Part shown: in pieces, positions 6,070-13,226 of the stretch
How positions within the stretch are numbered: the stretch's first letter is position 1
Layout: every line of letters begins with the position of its first letter
DNA from: a virus
Strand: one strand, 5' to 3'
IMG/VR virus record: IMGVR_UViG_3300027588_000012
Location: 1-23,098 of that record
DNA length: 23,098 nt
Position numbers and translations under genes: made by a program
The notes under the pieces: model-generated
What the model saw: only the letters and a program-made list of their open reading frames with translations
What the model was told of the DNA's origin: nothing
Databases searched by the model: none

Positions 6070-7032
6070 ATGGGAATGAATATTAGTCAGATGTTAGGGA
6101 GTGACCCTGACGTACTACGTGCTCAGTTAATGCAGCAAGAGATGGCTCGTTACAATCAGTATCAAGACCCACGTATGAACTTAGCTTCTACACTTGGTGG
6201 TCTTCTTGGTGGTGGTGTTGTTAACGTTGCTCAAGGTCGTAACTTCTTTGAAAGCAATAACCCAGTATTAAAGAAAGCATCTCAGCTACAAGAGATTTAT
6301 AATAACACTGCTCAATCAATTGACCCTACTGCTAACCCTGGTGACTTCTATAGAGCATTGCAAGGTAATCTAGCTGCTGCTGGTTTTGGTCCACAGGCTG
6401 CTATGGCTGCTCAAGAAGCATATAAGTATGCTAAGGAAGACAGAGAAATGTCTCTTAAAGAGCGTCAAGTTGTTGCTCAAGAGAGAAACGTTGCTCAGTT
6501 CGCTCAAGGTAACTACATGTCTGAGAAAGGTCCTCTTGTATTTAACAGAGAGACTGGTGGATATACTGTTGATGGTGAGCCATATAGCGAAGCTAAACAT
6601 GGTAAAGTCACATTCGCAGCTAAAGAAGACTTCAGGACTAACCTTCTTAAAGGTCCAGGTGCTGGTGGTGCTCCTGCTACTCCAGGTAAGGAAGGTAAGA
6701 AACCTCTTACTGAAGAAGAGAAGCGTGAGAAGTTTAATCGTGTTCAAGGTAAACCACAAGCTGCTCCTGCAGCAAGTACTGAAGAAGCTCCTGTATCTGC
6801 TGAGACAGAGAACCCAGAGATTATCAAGAGACCTTCAACATCAGGTGGTCGTGCTTCTACTGGTAATCAGTTCTATGTACCAGAGCTAGATAAATCATTC
6901 AGAACAGAGGCAGAAGCTAAAGCTGCTCTTGAGGCATATCGTATTAGAAACAGACCTCAAAGCGTAGTACAGCAACGTCCTACAATTCAGTTAAATCCAG
7001 AAACAACTCAATCTTTATTTTCAGTTAGATAA
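6070..7032 (+). CDS. Internal virion protein (gp15-like by position)
   Basis: ATG 6070 has AAGGA seven bases upstream. The 320-residue product begins MGMNISQMLGSDPDVLRAQL. Residues 10-140 are helical and Gln/Ala-rich, with SLKERQVVAQERNVAQFAQ as a probable coiled coil (about 136-155). The part from about 200 to 280 is low-complexity, Pro/Glu/Lys/Ala-rich and probably disordered, and a short folded tail (YVPELDKSFRTEAEAKAAL) follows. It has no cysteine and no enzyme motif. Its place between the Ala/Gln-rich protein and the large split protein matches T7 gp15. A 167-codon open frame in another frame of this gene is a composition shadow. The stop overlaps the next start as TAATG. Confidence 0.6.
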   Translation: MGMNISQMLGSDPDVLRAQLMQQEMARYNQYQDPRMNLASTLGGLLGGGVVNVAQGRNFFESNNPVLKKASQLQEIYNNTAQSIDPTANPGDFYRALQGNLAAAGFGPQAAMAAQEAYKYAKEDREMSLKERQVVAQERNVAQFAQGNYMSEKGPLVFNRETGGYTVDGEPYSEAKHGKVTFAAKEDFRTNLLKGPGAGGAPATPGKEGKKPLTEEEKREKFNRVQGKPQAAPAASTEEAPVSAETENPEIIKRPSTSGGRASTGNQFYVPELDKSFRTEAEAKAALEAYRIRNRPQSVVQQRPTIQLNPETTQSLFSVR

Positions 7033-8432
7033 TGGCTAAAGTCAACTACAACATCCTAGCTCTTAAGAAAGAGGGGCTATCGGATGAGGACATTGCTCGC
7101 TTAATCGCTGAAGATTTAGGTGCGGATTATAACGAGTATGTCTCTGAGGGTTTAACACCTAAAGATATCATTCGATTTGCTAACGAACAAGAGTACACTA
7201 CAGGTGAAGTACTAAAGCGTGGCTTCTTACAAGGAGCTACTTCTACCTATCGTGGTGTAAGACAACTAGCTGGAGCAGAACCTACAGATGAGGAGTTGCT
7301 AGCAGAGACAGAGTATCGTCAAATGCAAGAACAGAATCCTTGGGCTGCTTATGGTGCTAACATCGTAGGTAACATCCTTGGTGACCCTACTAACCTAATC
7401 CCTGGTGGTTTGTTGTTCAAAGGTGCTAAAGGTGCTATGAGCGTAGCAGGTCGTGTAGGTGCTCTAGGTGCTGTAACAGGTGCTGTTGAACCAAGATACG
7501 AAGATGAAGACCCCTCCAGACTCACTTCAGCCCTCGTAGGAGGCGTTACAGCAGGTGTCCTTGGGGGTGGTATTGCCAAGCTAACTGGCTTCGGTAAAAC
7601 GCTTCCTGACGCTACTGAGACTGCTTTTGTGAAAGAGGCAGATAGTATTGGTATTGACGCTAACGGAAACCAGATTAAAGATGTTCCTGGAGTCTTTGAC
7701 AATGCTGAGACACCAACTACACTAGCACAGCCTAGTATCGTTCAAACAGCAGAACAAGGCGTACCTAACGTTATTGAGCTACCTAAGCTACCTCAGTTCT
7801 TGTCTGGTGCTAAACCTTCATTCTTCACATCCCAAGTAGCTTTTGAGACAGACTTAGATAAGGCTTTGTATATTATTGCTAACCCTAAGTCTAAGTCAAA
7901 GAACCATCAAGAATATGTGGACTTTGTTAAGACAGCCTTGAATGTGGATGATGCCACTGCTAACAAACTAGCTGCCCAGGTAAGACAAGAAGTTATTGAG
8001 AAAGGCAAGCTAGTACAGAAAGAAGCAGGACTTGCTGGCACACAGGCAGAGAATGTACCTTTCCAGATGTCTAAAACCTTGGATGGTTTCTTAAATCCAG
8101 TTGATAAAAACCTTGACGATTTCTCAAAAATGGTGTATAATTATGGGAAGTCTATTGAAGAAGTTAACGGTAAGGCTAAGATAACACAAGCCATGACTGA
8201 AGACTATAGCTTTAAAAAGATTAGTGAAGCATATGCTCAAGCAGGTCTTAAAGTAACTCCTTTTGATATTGGTTTCCAGATTAAGGGTTATAACAAGATG
8301 CTTGATGAGCTAAAAGAAATCAATGGACGAAACTTTAAACCTAAATCATTTGAAGAATACGTTAAGAATGGTGCTAGCGTAGACGAAACTCTTGACTTAT
8401 TTGCACGTGGTGCTTTTGATGGATGTCTATAA
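7032..8432 (+). CDS. Large ejection-type protein, piece A (N-terminal part of a split gp16-like protein)
   Basis: This 466-residue protein starts at ATG 7032 in a TAATG overlap. Residues 1-60 have a small helical module (LSDEDIARLIAEDLGADY); about 95-180 hold Gly/Ala-rich hydrophobic stretches (AAYGANIVGNILGDPTNLIPGG, GALGAVTGAV, LVGGVTAGVLGGGIA) that look membrane-interacting. The rest is soluble and helical. The only cysteine is residue 465, in the terminal ...FDGCL. The gene is followed without a gap by two more genes with TAATG overlaps; together they total about 1,337 residues, close to T7 gp16 (about 1,320). I infer that it is the first part of one ejection protein. No transglycosylase motif (E-S-G-F) is seen. 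Confidence 0.65.
   Translation: MAKVNYNILALKKEGLSDEDIARLIAEDLGADYNEYVSEGLTPKDIIRFANEQEYTTGEVLKRGFLQGATSTYRGVRQLAGAEPTDEELLAETEYRQMQEQNPWAAYGANIVGNILGDPTNLIPGGLLFKGAKGAMSVAGRVGALGAVTGAVEPRYEDEDPSRLTSALVGGVTAGVLGGGIAKLTGFGKTLPDATETAFVKEADSIGIDANGNQIKDVPGVFDNAETPTTLAQPSIVQTAEQGVPNVIELPKLPQFLSGAKPSFFTSQVAFETDLDKALYIIANPKSKSKNHQEYVDFVKTALNVDDATANKLAAQVRQEVIEKGKLVQKEAGLAGTQAENVPFQMSKTLDGFLNPVDKNLDDFSKMVYNYGKSIEEVNGKAKITQAMTEDYSFKKISEAYAQAGLKVTPFDIGFQIKGYNKMLDELKEINGRNFKPKSFEEYVKNGASVDETLDLFARGAFDGCL
8113..8141 (+). promoter_or_regulatory. Internal near-consensus sigma70 promoter inside piece A
   Basis: TTGACG at 8113-8118 and TATAAT at 8136-8141 are 17 bases apart, 11 of 12 consensus bases. The site is within the coding sequence of piece A and reads in the same direction, with transcription expected near 8148. 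Transcripts would carry pieces B and C but not the start of A. It could be a chance match in A/T-rich coding DNA. Confidence 0.45.
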
Positions 8433-9064
8433 TGAAACGATGTGACCTCAAGTATTACAAGGCGTTCTTACCAAAAAGAATACCATCTAACTTAACACAG
8501 AAACAATTAGATAAGCTAGGTACATTGGACCAGGCACAGCAATCAAAGTTTGTATCAATGATGTCTGAGTTTGATGATGAGTCTGTTCAAGCTTTAAACA
8601 TTGTAGCTCAAGCTGCTCCTCAACGCTTTGCACAAACAACTAATAAAGGTTTGTCAATGGCTGAGTTAGCACAGCGTAACCAAGAACTCAATGCTAAGTT
8701 GATGGCTAGTGTACCAGAGAATGAGAGAGTAAGTCTTCAAGAGATTGGAGAGAAGTTAGCATTAGGACTAGAACGTGGTAGACCACTATCTACAGAAGAA
8801 AGAGCAATTGCTTTCCCAGCTTTTGCTAATCGTATGCATAACCTACCATTGTTGTTAAAACAAATACAACATGCTAACAACTCAGGCAACACTGCTGCTC
8901 AAGCGTTACTTGCTAAAGAATTAGTTGTTACTATGGGCGTTGCTGCTGGTATGTCTGGTGATAAGAATGCTGCATCTGTAGCCCTTAACTCATACAAGTA
9001 CTTCAAGAAGCAAATGCAATTAGGTAAAGAGATTAACCAGTTATTTCAGAATGGTGCTTGTTAA
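8432..9064 (+). CDS. Large ejection-type protein, piece B (middle part)
   Basis: The start is set at ATG 8432, which shares one base with the stop of piece A (TAATG). An ATG at 8423 in the same frame lies within piece A and is less likely. The 210-residue product begins MKRCDLKYYKAFLPKR and is almost entirely helical, with a Gln/Ala-rich middle. It has two cysteines only: residue 4 and residue 210, the final residue (...LFQNGAC). No ribosome binding site stands before the ATG, so translation probably depends on ribosomes that have just finished piece A. No separate family is recognised. Flanking context and the total length of A+B+C suggest the middle section of a gp16-like virion protein. 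Confidence 0.6.
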   Translation: MKRCDLKYYKAFLPKRIPSNLTQKQLDKLGTLDQAQQSKFVSMMSEFDDESVQALNIVAQAAPQRFAQTTNKGLSMAELAQRNQELNAKLMASVPENERVSLQEIGEKLALGLERGRPLSTEERAIAFPAFANRMHNLPLLLKQIQHANNSGNTAAQALLAKELVVTMGVAAGMSGDKNAASVALNSYKYFKKQMQLGKEINQLFQNGAC

Positions 9065-11049
9065 TGAAAATCAGTCAAAGATGTATTGAATTTATAAATA
9101 AGATGACAGGGTCGTTTGATAACCTGTTAAACAATAGTGCTGCCACAGATAGTGAAGCATTAGAAGCTGTTGCTAAGTCAATGACTACAGCATTGCGTAA
9201 TCCTACCTATCGTGAGCGTATTGGTTCATATGTACGTAACAGTTACTTGTCTGGTATCTCAACACAAGTAGTCAACCTTGTTAACCAAATAGGTCAAACA
9301 ATTGTGCAGCCTGTACTTCGTGCATCACGTGGTCAGTTTGGTGAAGCAGGTGCAATGCTAGAAGGTATTACTACTGGTTTCATGGAAGCATTCCCACGCT
9401 TTGTAGGTGCTCTAAAGACACGTCCTGTTAACTTGGACTTTGCTAATCAAACAGCATTTGATATCACTAAGAATAAGACAGCAGATGCTATTCTAACTTT
9501 CCCTACACGTGTAACTGGTGCATTGGACGAAGGTTTCAGTGCTGTACTAGAGCGTATGGAGTTTAATGCTTTACGTTATCGTGTTGCTAACAAATTCCCA
9601 GATGAGTTCTTCAGACGTAATAACACAACTAGAGAAGCCTTTGTAAAAGAAATCGAAGAGATTGCTTTAGGAGCGAAGAAGAATCCTTTGTGGTTGAATA
9701 AGCTATCAGAACTATCACCTGAGTTACATCAACAGTTAACTGAGTTTAAGATGTTCAACGTGTTCCGTTCACGTCTAGGCTCTTCTGCCCTGGACCAGAT
9801 GGGTAAGATGGTATCTAAAGCCAAAGAGACAACACCAGAGTTAAACCTTGTTGTTCCTTTCGTTACTACACCTATTAACGTTGTTAAAGAAGCAGGTGGT
9901 TACGTGCCAGGATTAGGCATGCTACGTGTACGCCAAGCTAAGATTGACATCAAGACACTACAGAGCAGATTAGCAGCTACTGAAGCTAAGTTATTGAACA
10001 CTACAAACCCTGACTCTCAAGCACGTCTTGCTGAGAAGGCTGCACGTATTCGTGGTGAGATTTCATTTAAGCAATCTAAAGTACCTGACTTCTACACACA
10101 GCAATTGATGGGTGCTGGTTTCATGCTAGCAACTTATGGCATGCTTAAACAAGGGTTGATTACTGGTCATTACTCTAACGACCCTGCTGAAAGACAGAGA
10201 CAAATAACATCTCAGATTCCTCCTATGTCTATTAAGATTGGAGACCAGTGGATAAGCTATGCACGTGTTGAGCCTGTGGCTACCTTGATGGGTACAGTAG
10301 CAGATATGATGCAAGCATACAAAGAGAAGCGTGTCAAGAATGAAGACATGGCTGCTGCTGATATTGCTAAAATTGTAGGATTGAATCTAACAGATAAAAC
10401 ATTTACTGAAGGTTTGTCTAAACTGTTCTTGGCATTCCAAGAGCCAGGTAGATATTTAGAATCATTCATGGTAAGTATGACTAACCCAGTTGTACCTACA
10501 TTGGTGTCTCAGATTGCTAAACTAGAAGATGATATCAAGCGTGAAGTTAGAGACCCTGATTTAGCAACATGGACAATCAATAACCTTAAGTCTCGTATCC
10601 CTGGCTTACGTGGTGACTTGCCTGCTCAGGTGAACCTATTAGGTCAAGAGCAAGACTTAGGTACATTAGGTGGTTCTTTAACTGGCTTTAACGTTGCTCC
10701 TGTAGACAGAGAACTTGTTAACCAGATGTTCGATAATCCATTCTTAAAACTAACACGTACTACACGTGAGATTGGTGGATTAGAGTTGACTGGTGCACAG
10801 TACGCAGCCCTTGAGAAAGAGATTGGTGACTATACTTATAATGCTATGTCTGTAATGGCTAATAACCCTGCATTCTTAGGGCTATCACGACCACTACAAG
10901 CCAACTTTATCAAAGGCATTGTAACTGATATTCGTAGTGCTGTAAGGCTCAAAGCCCTGGGTGATTTAGTACAAGACCCAGAGCTAAGAGCTAAATACAT
11001 TTTAAACGAACAGGCTAAGTATGGTGCTCAACCTGACTTAGTAGATTAA
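9064..11049 (+). CDS. Large ejection-type protein, piece C (LPD38-like C-terminal part)
   Basis: The start is ATG 9064, sharing one base with the stop of piece B (TAATG); a TTG at 9058 would add two residues. The 661-residue product begins MKISQRCIEF and its only cysteine is residue 7. A hydrophobic helical segment near residue 355 (QQLMGAGFMLATYGMLKQG) is followed by WISYARVEPVATLMGTVADM (about 397-416), a pattern found in the LPD38 domain of large polyvalent phage proteins. That domain call is from memory of the motif and needs a profile search. A helical region with many Lys/Glu/Ala (about 300-340) resembles a coiled coil. The protein likely travels into the cell with the DNA. It ends four bases into the convergent minus-strand gene. 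Confidence 0.65.
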   Translation: MKISQRCIEFINKMTGSFDNLLNNSAATDSEALEAVAKSMTTALRNPTYRERIGSYVRNSYLSGISTQVVNLVNQIGQTIVQPVLRASRGQFGEAGAMLEGITTGFMEAFPRFVGALKTRPVNLDFANQTAFDITKNKTADAILTFPTRVTGALDEGFSAVLERMEFNALRYRVANKFPDEFFRRNNTTREAFVKEIEEIALGAKKNPLWLNKLSELSPELHQQLTEFKMFNVFRSRLGSSALDQMGKMVSKAKETTPELNLVVPFVTTPINVVKEAGGYVPGLGMLRVRQAKIDIKTLQSRLAATEAKLLNTTNPDSQARLAEKAARIRGEISFKQSKVPDFYTQQLMGAGFMLATYGMLKQGLITGHYSNDPAERQRQITSQIPPMSIKIGDQWISYARVEPVATLMGTVADMMQAYKEKRVKNEDMAAADIAKIVGLNLTDKTFTEGLSKLFLAFQEPGRYLESFMVSMTNPVVPTLVSQIAKLEDDIKREVRDPDLATWTINNLKSRIPGLRGDLPAQVNLLGQEQDLGTLGGSLTGFNVAPVDRELVNQMFDNPFLKLTRTTREIGGLELTGAQYAALEKEIGDYTYNAMSVMANNPAFLGLSRPLQANFIKGIVTDIRSAVRLKALGDLVQDPELRAKYILNEQAKYGAQPDLVD

Positions 11050-11174
11050 TCTTCTTCTCTACTGAATAAGATACGCACTATACCTAGGTCAAGGACATAA
11101 TACTGCCCTTCATCTAGGTTAGCGTATTCAAATCCAATAGCGAACCCAGTAATCAAATAAAACTCTACTGTCAT
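11046..11174 (-). CDS. 42-residue hypothetical protein after ribonucleotide reductase
   Basis: This small frame begins at ATG 11174, overlapping the reductase stop as ATGA, and ends at TAA 11048-11046. It reads MTVEFYLITGFAIGFEYANL, then DEGQYYVLDLGIVRILFSREED. The hydrophobic N-terminal third followed by a conserved-looking VLDLGIVRI segment is like small proteins placed after ribonucleotide reductase or other replication genes in related phages; its function is unknown. It may be a peripheral membrane peptide. It is the last gene of the leftward unit, and its end overlaps the end of the late unit by four bases, with no terminator in between. Confidence 0.7.
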   Translation of the reverse strand: MTVEFYLITGFAIGFEYANLDEGQYYVLDLGIVRILFSREED

Positions 11175-13102
11175 ATGGCACATCCTCCTGCAGTACATGA
11201 TAACATCTGAGCACCTTCTACGTTATCATCATACTCTTTGAAGTCATCCCAACTCACTGAATCAGGAACTAACATTCTTAGTTGGTTATACTGCTCTTCT
11301 GTGCACTCCTCATAAGGTGCTTGCTTGTATGTTCCACCATCCATTGGCAAGAACGATACACCAGTTACCTCATCAAAGTGTTCCCACACCCAAGCCCCCA
11401 CCTCCATCCATTCGTCTTCCTTAACACTGATAGTTACTGAAGGTTTGTGTTCACAGTAATGTCTCTGGAATAACAACCATAACTTCAAGTGCTTAATAGC
11501 AGACAAATCTTCTCTCAACAACGCACCATCAGCAACCTTGACAGGGAAACTAAAGACTGTCGTGCTATCAGGCTTCATCACACAAGGTTCAGCTACAAAC
11601 CCTGACTGAATCATGAACTGAGTTAAAGGGTCTTTGTTATCAGCTCTAACCCTACGAATATAGTATTGACTATGCTGAGGATGAATACCACTCGCAGTCG
11701 AACAGAGTTGAGATACAGTCCCTTCAGGTTTAATTGCTGTAACAGCCACAGACTGATTAATCCCAACAGCAGTAGCGAACTCAGCATTAACAGCAACAGC
11801 AACATCTTTTAGTTTCTCCAATCGTTTAGGTAACTCTACATCATCAGGGTTATTCAATAAAGCATTGTCTAAGATGCCAGTCATTGACACACCTAGTAGT
11901 GCTTCCTCTTCAGTATTCTTCTGCCATACTTTACGTAGGTAAGGGAAGTTTGTTAACGTTGCTTGAAAAGTCCCAAGAATCGTTGCCAACCTAATCTTAC
12001 GTTCCAAAGTGTCCATAGTATCATCACTGCGAACAATGCAAGAGGATAGATTACAGAACTGATAAGGGCGAAGAATGATTTCAGAGCAAGGGTTCGTACC
12101 AAAATCGTAAGTACTGTCTCTTCTGCCATTCTTTGCTGCTTGCTTCTGTGATGCATCACGATTAAAGATTCCTCTCTCGCCACTATGTGACTCATAAATA
12201 CTTGTCCACTCACGCATGAACTGACCAATGCCAGGTTTCTCAGCGTATGTAGCAGAGTTATTTGCTAACGCTCTTTGACCTTGACCATCCCACCACGCTC
12301 CTGCTTTAGCATGTGCCATCTTATCATCTGACAAATCAGACAAAGAAATCATCGCACTTCTACGTACTCCTCCCACGACAACAACTTCCCCAATTTTGCA
12401 CAGAATATCATGACACTCCAACGAGGATAGTTTTCTCCCAGTCGAACCCTTGAACTTACCAATAACAAACTTGAACAAGTCTTCCAAAGGTTTAGGTCCA
12501 GATGCTCTTCCTCCAAACGTCTTGAGTCTTGCACCTTGAGGGCGAACTTTCGACAAGTCGAACTTTGGAATCTCGCCAGAATAAAGAAGAGCCAATAGTT
12601 GACGAAGCGACTTTGCCCATCCTTCTTTACTATCGGACACCACCACAGTAGTCTGACTATCAAACAACTTATCTGGTACTTCAGGTAACTGCTTAACATA
12701 TTGCTGCTCCACGCTAAAGCCTACTCCAGTACCACAGAGAAGGATATACATTGCTTCATCAAAAGCTTTAGGGTCATCGATAGGCAAGTAACTGCAATTG
12801 AATGCTGCCACGTTCTGACGCTCTAAAGCAGGTCCTGCAGTCATCACTGCTCGCATGCTTGGTACTACTTCTAAATGCTTCACAGCATCTTCTAACTCTG
12901 CACGTAACTCAGGTGTTAACGTGTAGCCATTCTTCTCTTTCAGATTCTTAGTCATGAAGTCAAAGTAACGTGCTACTGTTTCATCCCAGTGTTCTCTACG
13001 TCCCTGTTCATCTAGGTAACGTGAGTATCTGCTCTTAGCGATAAACGTGTTATAAGGTGTTAATTCGTATTTACTCAAGTTCTTTCTCCAGTCTATCAGC
13101 AT
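11171..13102 (-). CDS. nrdJ: Adenosylcobalamin-dependent (class II) ribonucleotide reductase, monomeric type
   Basis: The enzyme reduces ribonucleotides to deoxyribonucleotides using a vitamin B12 coenzyme. The start is ATG 13102 (GAAGAG upstream, 643 residues); an upstream in-frame TTG at 13132 is less likely. Numbering from 13102, NPCSE at 337-341 carries the thiyl-radical Cys339 and Glu341; Cys103 (FNCSY) and Cys350 (FCNLSS) are the redox pair, and the C-terminal CTAGGC (Cys636, Cys641) is the reducing tail. The spacings (Cys339 to Cys350, and five residues between the tail cysteines) match the single-chain Lactobacillus-type enzyme. It supplies dNTPs for the DNA polymerase upstream in the same unit, without an R2 subunit or oxygen. 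The start overlaps the preceding 51-residue gene by 32 bases. Confidence 0.93.
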   Translation of the reverse strand: MLIDWRKNLSKYELTPYNTFIAKSRYSRYLDEQGRREHWDETVARYFDFMTKNLKEKNGYTLTPELRAELEDAVKHLEVVPSMRAVMTAGPALERQNVAAFNCSYLPIDDPKAFDEAMYILLCGTGVGFSVEQQYVKQLPEVPDKLFDSQTTVVVSDSKEGWAKSLRQLLALLYSGEIPKFDLSKVRPQGARLKTFGGRASGPKPLEDLFKFVIGKFKGSTGRKLSSLECHDILCKIGEVVVVGGVRRSAMISLSDLSDDKMAHAKAGAWWDGQGQRALANNSATYAEKPGIGQFMREWTSIYESHSGERGIFNRDASQKQAAKNGRRDSTYDFGTNPCSEIILRPYQFCNLSSCIVRSDDTMDTLERKIRLATILGTFQATLTNFPYLRKVWQKNTEEEALLGVSMTGILDNALLNNPDDVELPKRLEKLKDVAVAVNAEFATAVGINQSVAVTAIKPEGTVSQLCSTASGIHPQHSQYYIRRVRADNKDPLTQFMIQSGFVAEPCVMKPDSTTVFSFPVKVADGALLREDLSAIKHLKLWLLFQRHYCEHKPSVTISVKEDEWMEVGAWVWEHFDEVTGVSFLPMDGGTYKQAPYEECTEEQYNQLRMLVPDSVSWDDFKEYDDNVEGAQMLSCTAGGCAI

Positions 13103-13226
13103 GCTCTTCAATAACGTCAATAAATCTCTCAACGATATCTTCAGATGTTATTTGTAATACTTCCAATAATGTTATCTCATCTAGCTGTGCTAGCCTAGTT
13201 AGAATATCTCTTAATGTGAGAGCCAT
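13071..13226 (-). CDS. 51-residue helical protein before the reductase
   Basis: ATG 13226 is preceded by AAGGAG with eight bases of spacing, an excellent ribosome binding site. The product begins MALTLRDILTRLAQLDEITL and is Leu/Ile/Glu-rich throughout, ending RLEKELE. Similar small acidic helical proteins are common in phage early regions; their function is not known. The gene overlaps the start of the reductase in another frame. The promoter at 13229-13257 lies over its ribosome binding site, so transcripts from that promoter would begin past its start codon. It would then be made only from longer upstream transcripts. Confidence 0.75.
   Translation of the reverse strand: MALTLRDILTRLAQLDEITLLEVLQITSEDIVERFIDVIEEHADRLEKELE

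Follow-up and report, generated by a model that had tools for sequence, protein, structure and literature searches.

Conserved cysteines at the breaks of a putative three-chain ejection protein in short-tailed phages

The stretch of DNA analysed here, IMG/VR virus record IMGVR_UViG_3300027588_000012 (23,098 bp; hereafter the window), is a fragment of the genome of a short-tailed phage, and three consecutive genes in it, called A, B and C, appear to encode one large internal virion (ejection) protein made as three chains (466, 210 and 661 residues, 1,337 in sum). The trio holds four cysteines in total (A465, B4, B210 and C7), one on either side of each of the two breaks. Because the same placement, with no cysteine elsewhere, recurs across 37 contigs, the window included, we hypothesize that interchain disulfides probably hold the pieces together, as A-S-S-B-S-S-C. 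Internal virion proteins are a known kind of protein; to judge from the sequences, what is new is the three-chain form with paired cysteines at the breaks, of which we found no description in the open-access text searched, in keeping with the statement of the first-pass annotation of the window that it knew of no system quite like it. The passage of proteins longer than 1,000 residues through the narrow phage tail, and their return to function in the cell envelope, are not yet understood (PMC8954989, PMC12633501).

On re-reading, the piece sizes, the TAATG overlaps and the four cysteine positions reported in the first-pass annotation are all exact (Table 1), and its estimate that four randomly placed cysteines would all fall so near the breaks about 2 times in 10 million is right when recomputed ((28/1337)^4, or ~2e-7); the chance that each 7-residue window at the four chain ends beside the breaks holds exactly one cysteine is ~1.8e-8. 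Far stronger evidence against chance lies in the comparison among relatives. IMG/VR was scanned for split relatives, and contigs were counted by hand, once each, from the locus tables: both breaks are readable in 36 other viral contigs of about 16 lineages, with identity down to 26-30% (outside the closest relatives, identity to the window is 28-44% for B and 26-55% for A). All 36, like the window, carry one cysteine close to each chain end that faces a break (the tails of A and B, the heads of B and C), with no further cysteine in the three pieces after the inferred start codons. Start codons are inferred for the relatives and the window alike; alternative starts in the window (for B at 8423, giving MSIMKRC, and for C at a TTG at 9058) leave the cysteine pattern the same, and an upstream B start in one relative (L001) would bring in one extra cysteine (MYC).

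The alignments tell the same story at the level of single residues. In the first 47 proteins aligned (16 A, 15 B and 16 C, including those of the window and one incomplete C), all 61 cysteines among 21,623 residues stand at junction positions. Only 9 of the 210 columns of an alignment of 19 B sequences are invariant, and the two cysteines are among them; Cys7 is the sole invariant residue within the first 46 of C; the tail motif DGC of A is invariant in 17 sequences; and the heads mostly carry a basic residue before the cysteine (KRC, AKC). It had been predicted that relatives with the same breaks would keep the junction cysteines, and every intact case among the 36 contigs does so; identical breaks lacking these cysteines were looked for among intact loci and not found. 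One contig, L035, is nearly identical to another, L036, minus ~79 nucleotides exactly at the B/C break (near 4516-4520 of L035), with both junction cysteines gone and the frames out of register; this gap is either an assembly artefact or a natural deletion. The two breaks also resemble each other, with tails LF..GAFDGC and LFQNGAC and heads M(x)[KR]C..[FY] (8400-8460 and 9040-9110), a likeness that may reflect a common origin or a common docking partner.

In a phylogenetic tree of C, the split copies form one clade (support of 100 in the Shimodaira-Hasegawa-like approximate likelihood ratio test), which spans 8.86 substitutions per site internally and in which no intact copy has lost a junction cysteine. 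As the split group is one clade, the link between breaks and cysteines goes back to a single origin, kept over ~8.9 substitutions per site. The root of the tree is not fixed, and the long proteins may therefore be fusions derived from an older trio; fusion in other lineages, rather than fission of a gene in the split one, is possible.

Family searches and structure prediction place the trio among the internal virion proteins. C gives a profile match to phrog_6651 (internal virion protein, Syn5 gp45 type) with an expectation value (E) of 9.7e-31, a family matched by 43 of 43 C-type rows, and its sequence makes it a member of that family. A matches weakly, over part of the profile (E 3.2e-7), to phrog_342, the profile of T7 gp16 and its family (internal virion protein with endolysin domain); of the 16 A sequences, 15 match it, whereas B and C do not, and B found no match when PHROG and Pfam were searched. 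A lytic transglycosylase domain, detected at the N terminus of T7 gp16, was not found in A, B or C by family searches. In summed size and order the trio resembles one gp16-like protein minus its transglycosylase domain. The AlphaFold2 model of C (predicted local distance difference test score, pLDDT, of 82.5) is mainly helical, with Cys7 at the start of the first helix. Compared with viral models by Foldseek, it matches internal virion proteins of Pelagibacter phage Eyrgjafa EXVC018P (E 8.8e-14) and Synechococcus phage S-RIP1 (E 3.4e-13), and it also matches large polyvalent proteins of phages; against the PDB it found no match at E 0.001, although gp16 entries are present there. In unbroken relatives the C-like part is the C-terminal end of the chain and is preceded by several hundred residues, to which A and B, when mapped residue by residue, correspond weakly, at mostly collinear positions. 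The family has no cultured member and its contigs come from metagenomes, so an ejection function of A, B and C is deduced from family membership, with gene position in agreement.

The unbroken relatives supply the background against which the junction cysteines stand out. Among 53 such proteins (69,547 residues) there are 4 cysteines, and 51 proteins, T7 gp16 (1,318 residues) and SP6 gp37 included, have none; the exceptions are the protein of Desulfovibrio phage ProddE, with three, and that of L047, with one. The cysteine content of open reading frames of at least 150 residues in these phages is 0.6-0.9%, so that several hundred cysteines would be expected in 69,547 residues. T7 gp15 and the two window proteins upstream of A likewise have no cysteine; examples of the scarcity are T7 gp15 and gp16, SP6p36 and SP6 gp37 (L058, L059). 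A near-lack of cysteine appears to be a rule of these large internal virion proteins, a rule of which we found no statement for gp16-like ejection proteins in the open-access literature searched, and from which the split clade departs solely at its breaks. The prediction that unbroken relatives would lack the junction cysteines is thereby upheld, and a search for unbroken homologues with cysteines at the same places found none.

We suggest the following course of events. The tail cysteine of A (A465) would pair with the head cysteine of B (B4), and the tail cysteine of B (B210) with the head cysteine of C (C7), both as interchain disulfides. The periplasm is oxidising, and the bonds would form after assembly, either in the virion once lysis removes the reducing cytoplasm or when the chains are ejected into the periplasm. 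Keeping other cysteines out, by selection, would prevent wrong pairing in a protein that is large and refolds: refolding outside the virion is described for the T7 ejection proteins (PMC8954989), and with few other thiols the pairing would be unambiguous in proteins that refold after ejection. Separate chains might, by way of speculation, ease passage through the tail, or permit reduction and release in the cytoplasm. With somewhat less assurance than for the disulfides as such, we lean towards a covalent daisy chain, in which the only cysteines form two disulfides that link the three chains in series, possibly redox-switched (forming in the virion or periplasm, opening in the cytoplasm), in a family otherwise kept cysteine-free for safety.

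Nothing in the nucleotide context of the breaks points to a special mode of reading. The A-B overlap is 1 nucleotide in the window, L020, L068 and L088, 4 nucleotides in L003, L004, L065-L067 and L092, and 11 nucleotides in L007, L036 and L083, where the relative frame differs as well; the B-C overlap is 1 or 4 nucleotides, except in L083 and its kin, whose B and C are read in the same frame and separated by a single TAA. Translational coupling through these overlaps is likely. Cysteine codons swap between TGT and TGC among the split relatives (the head codon of C is TGT in all 17 compared, and the other three junction codons vary), and the cysteines stay despite these swaps and the changes of frame, which indicates selection on the amino acid and counts against ribosome hopping, frameshifting or sequencing error as general explanations. 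A ribosome bypassing or shifting frame between matched TGT codons, to give one continuous protein, has the attraction that a TGT-to-TGT hop would join the frames at both breaks of the window; we rejected this reading, to which we give hardly any weight, because the take-off or landing codon is TGC in many relatives, B lies in a different relative frame in the three contigs with the longest overlap, the stop of L083 is in frame, and the heads before the cysteine vary in the manner of protein code. No more credible is that the breaks are sequencing errors or frameshifts, the former named beforehand as a way in which the idea could fail, or that a dying gene holds chance cysteines: we found nothing in favour of this, and it is refuted by identical breaks in 36 other contigs from many samples. 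A split intein was also discarded, since A has one residue after Cys465 and so no room for an intein half. Elsewhere in the family, a phage-like copy on a Bordetella bronchiseptica plasmid (L061, NZ_CP132331, 3208-6185) is annotated as two open reading frames without cysteines, apparently because of a simple frameshift within a conserved RMEFNA-like motif.

Other roles for the thiols are harder to dismiss, and several points weigh against the disulfide-linked trio: the evidence for the bonds consists of the conservation pattern; split and cysteines arose once, together, on the tree, an association without replication; every split copy comes from a metagenomic contig, with no cultured member carrying the trait found among 50,697 phage records and no prophage relative in the genome contigs searched; and the AlphaFold2 model of B (pLDDT 48, from 15 rows) is unusable for distances between cysteines. 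The four cysteines could also build a single Cys4 metal site, and a Zn(Cys)4 or iron-sulfur centre that knots the three chains, with two ligands from B and one each from A and C, would account for there being exactly four, all conserved. We consider it unlikely, as there are no CxxC pairs, the ligands would come from three chain ends with both ends of B having to meet, and the cysteines are split evenly, one pair per break, with mostly basic heads. That the cysteines staple copies of the same piece into a ring (A-A or B-B), or bind a host or phage partner, seems to us quite unlikely too: T7 gp16 forms a four-fold ring in the virion (PMC11784390), and copies therefore lie close, but such links leave unexplained both the single cysteine on each side of both breaks and its absence from unbroken relatives. 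A role in the reduced state, in assembly or in contacts between chains with no lasting covalent link, would suit the reducing cytoplasm in which assembly occurs and the fact that the disulfides are deduced rather than observed; it is nevertheless improbable, given strict cysteine, rather than serine or alanine, at four chain ends of a family that otherwise avoids this residue.

Proteins once continuous that stay joined by disulfides after nicking, such as the 11S seed globulins, offer a parallel for the proposed A-S-S-B-S-S-C linkage, although in these a single gene product is cut, whereas A, B and C are separate genes. Among phages the nearest known systems are T7 gp16 (internal virion protein D) and SP6 gp37. 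Both are ejected internal virion proteins of very large size and are entirely cysteine-free, as A, B and C are outside the junctions, but they consist of one chain, in contrast to the three chains and four break cysteines found here. The Syn5 gp45-type proteins of cyanophages and roseophages, to which C matches over ~600 residues of their C-terminal part, are likewise single chains, of ~1,100-1,610 residues (1,415 in Syn5 gp45, the named member) and, the protein of ProddE apart, without cysteine. In phage P22 several ejected proteins (gp7, gp16 and gp20) similarly build a conduit, but they are three different proteins, counterparts of T7 gp14, gp15 and gp16, and not one protein in pieces (PMC8954989). 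The split trio suggests that evolution has marked the joints of a giant ejection protein, by two breaks with cysteines on both sides in a family that avoids cysteine, and the pattern points to a covalent rejoining step; the scarcity of cysteine in gp16-like ejection proteins may extend to other ejected proteins.

Table 1. Coordinates of the three-chain locus and its upstream neighbours in the window
Feature	Position	Strand	Description
Piece A	7032..8432	+	466 residues; N-terminal third of gp16-like protein (putative); sole cysteine 465 in tail GAFDGCL
Piece B	8432..9064	+	210 residues; Cys4 and C-terminal Cys210; without annotated family
Piece C	9064..11049	+	661 residues; internal virion protein core (putative); Cys7 at start of first predicted helix
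Break 1, TAATG	8430..8434	+	Stop of A overlaps start of B
Break 2, TAATG	9062..9066	+	Stop of B overlaps start of C
A Cys465 codon TGT	8424..8426	+	Cysteine in every split relative, TGT or TGC
B Cys4 codon TGT	8441..8443	+	From sequence read and relatives
B Cys210 codon TGT, last residue	9059..9061	+	From sequence read and relatives
C Cys7 codon TGT	9082..9084	+	Sole invariant residue among first 46 of C
Two upstream cysteine-free proteins, 362 and 320 residues	4972..7032	+	Placed by position only

The structural genes of the window form a module on the + strand, and its replication module, which is T7-like, lies on the - strand. The 362- and 320-residue proteins upstream of A, for which a family search of the window proteins gave no match, are likely to be the other ejection proteins, judged by their position. 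Convergent to the C gene lies a gene for a ribonucleotide reductase (11171-13132, - strand) that weakly matches class II (B12-dependent) domains, and L001, L003 and L004 have an open reading frame of the same length in the same place.
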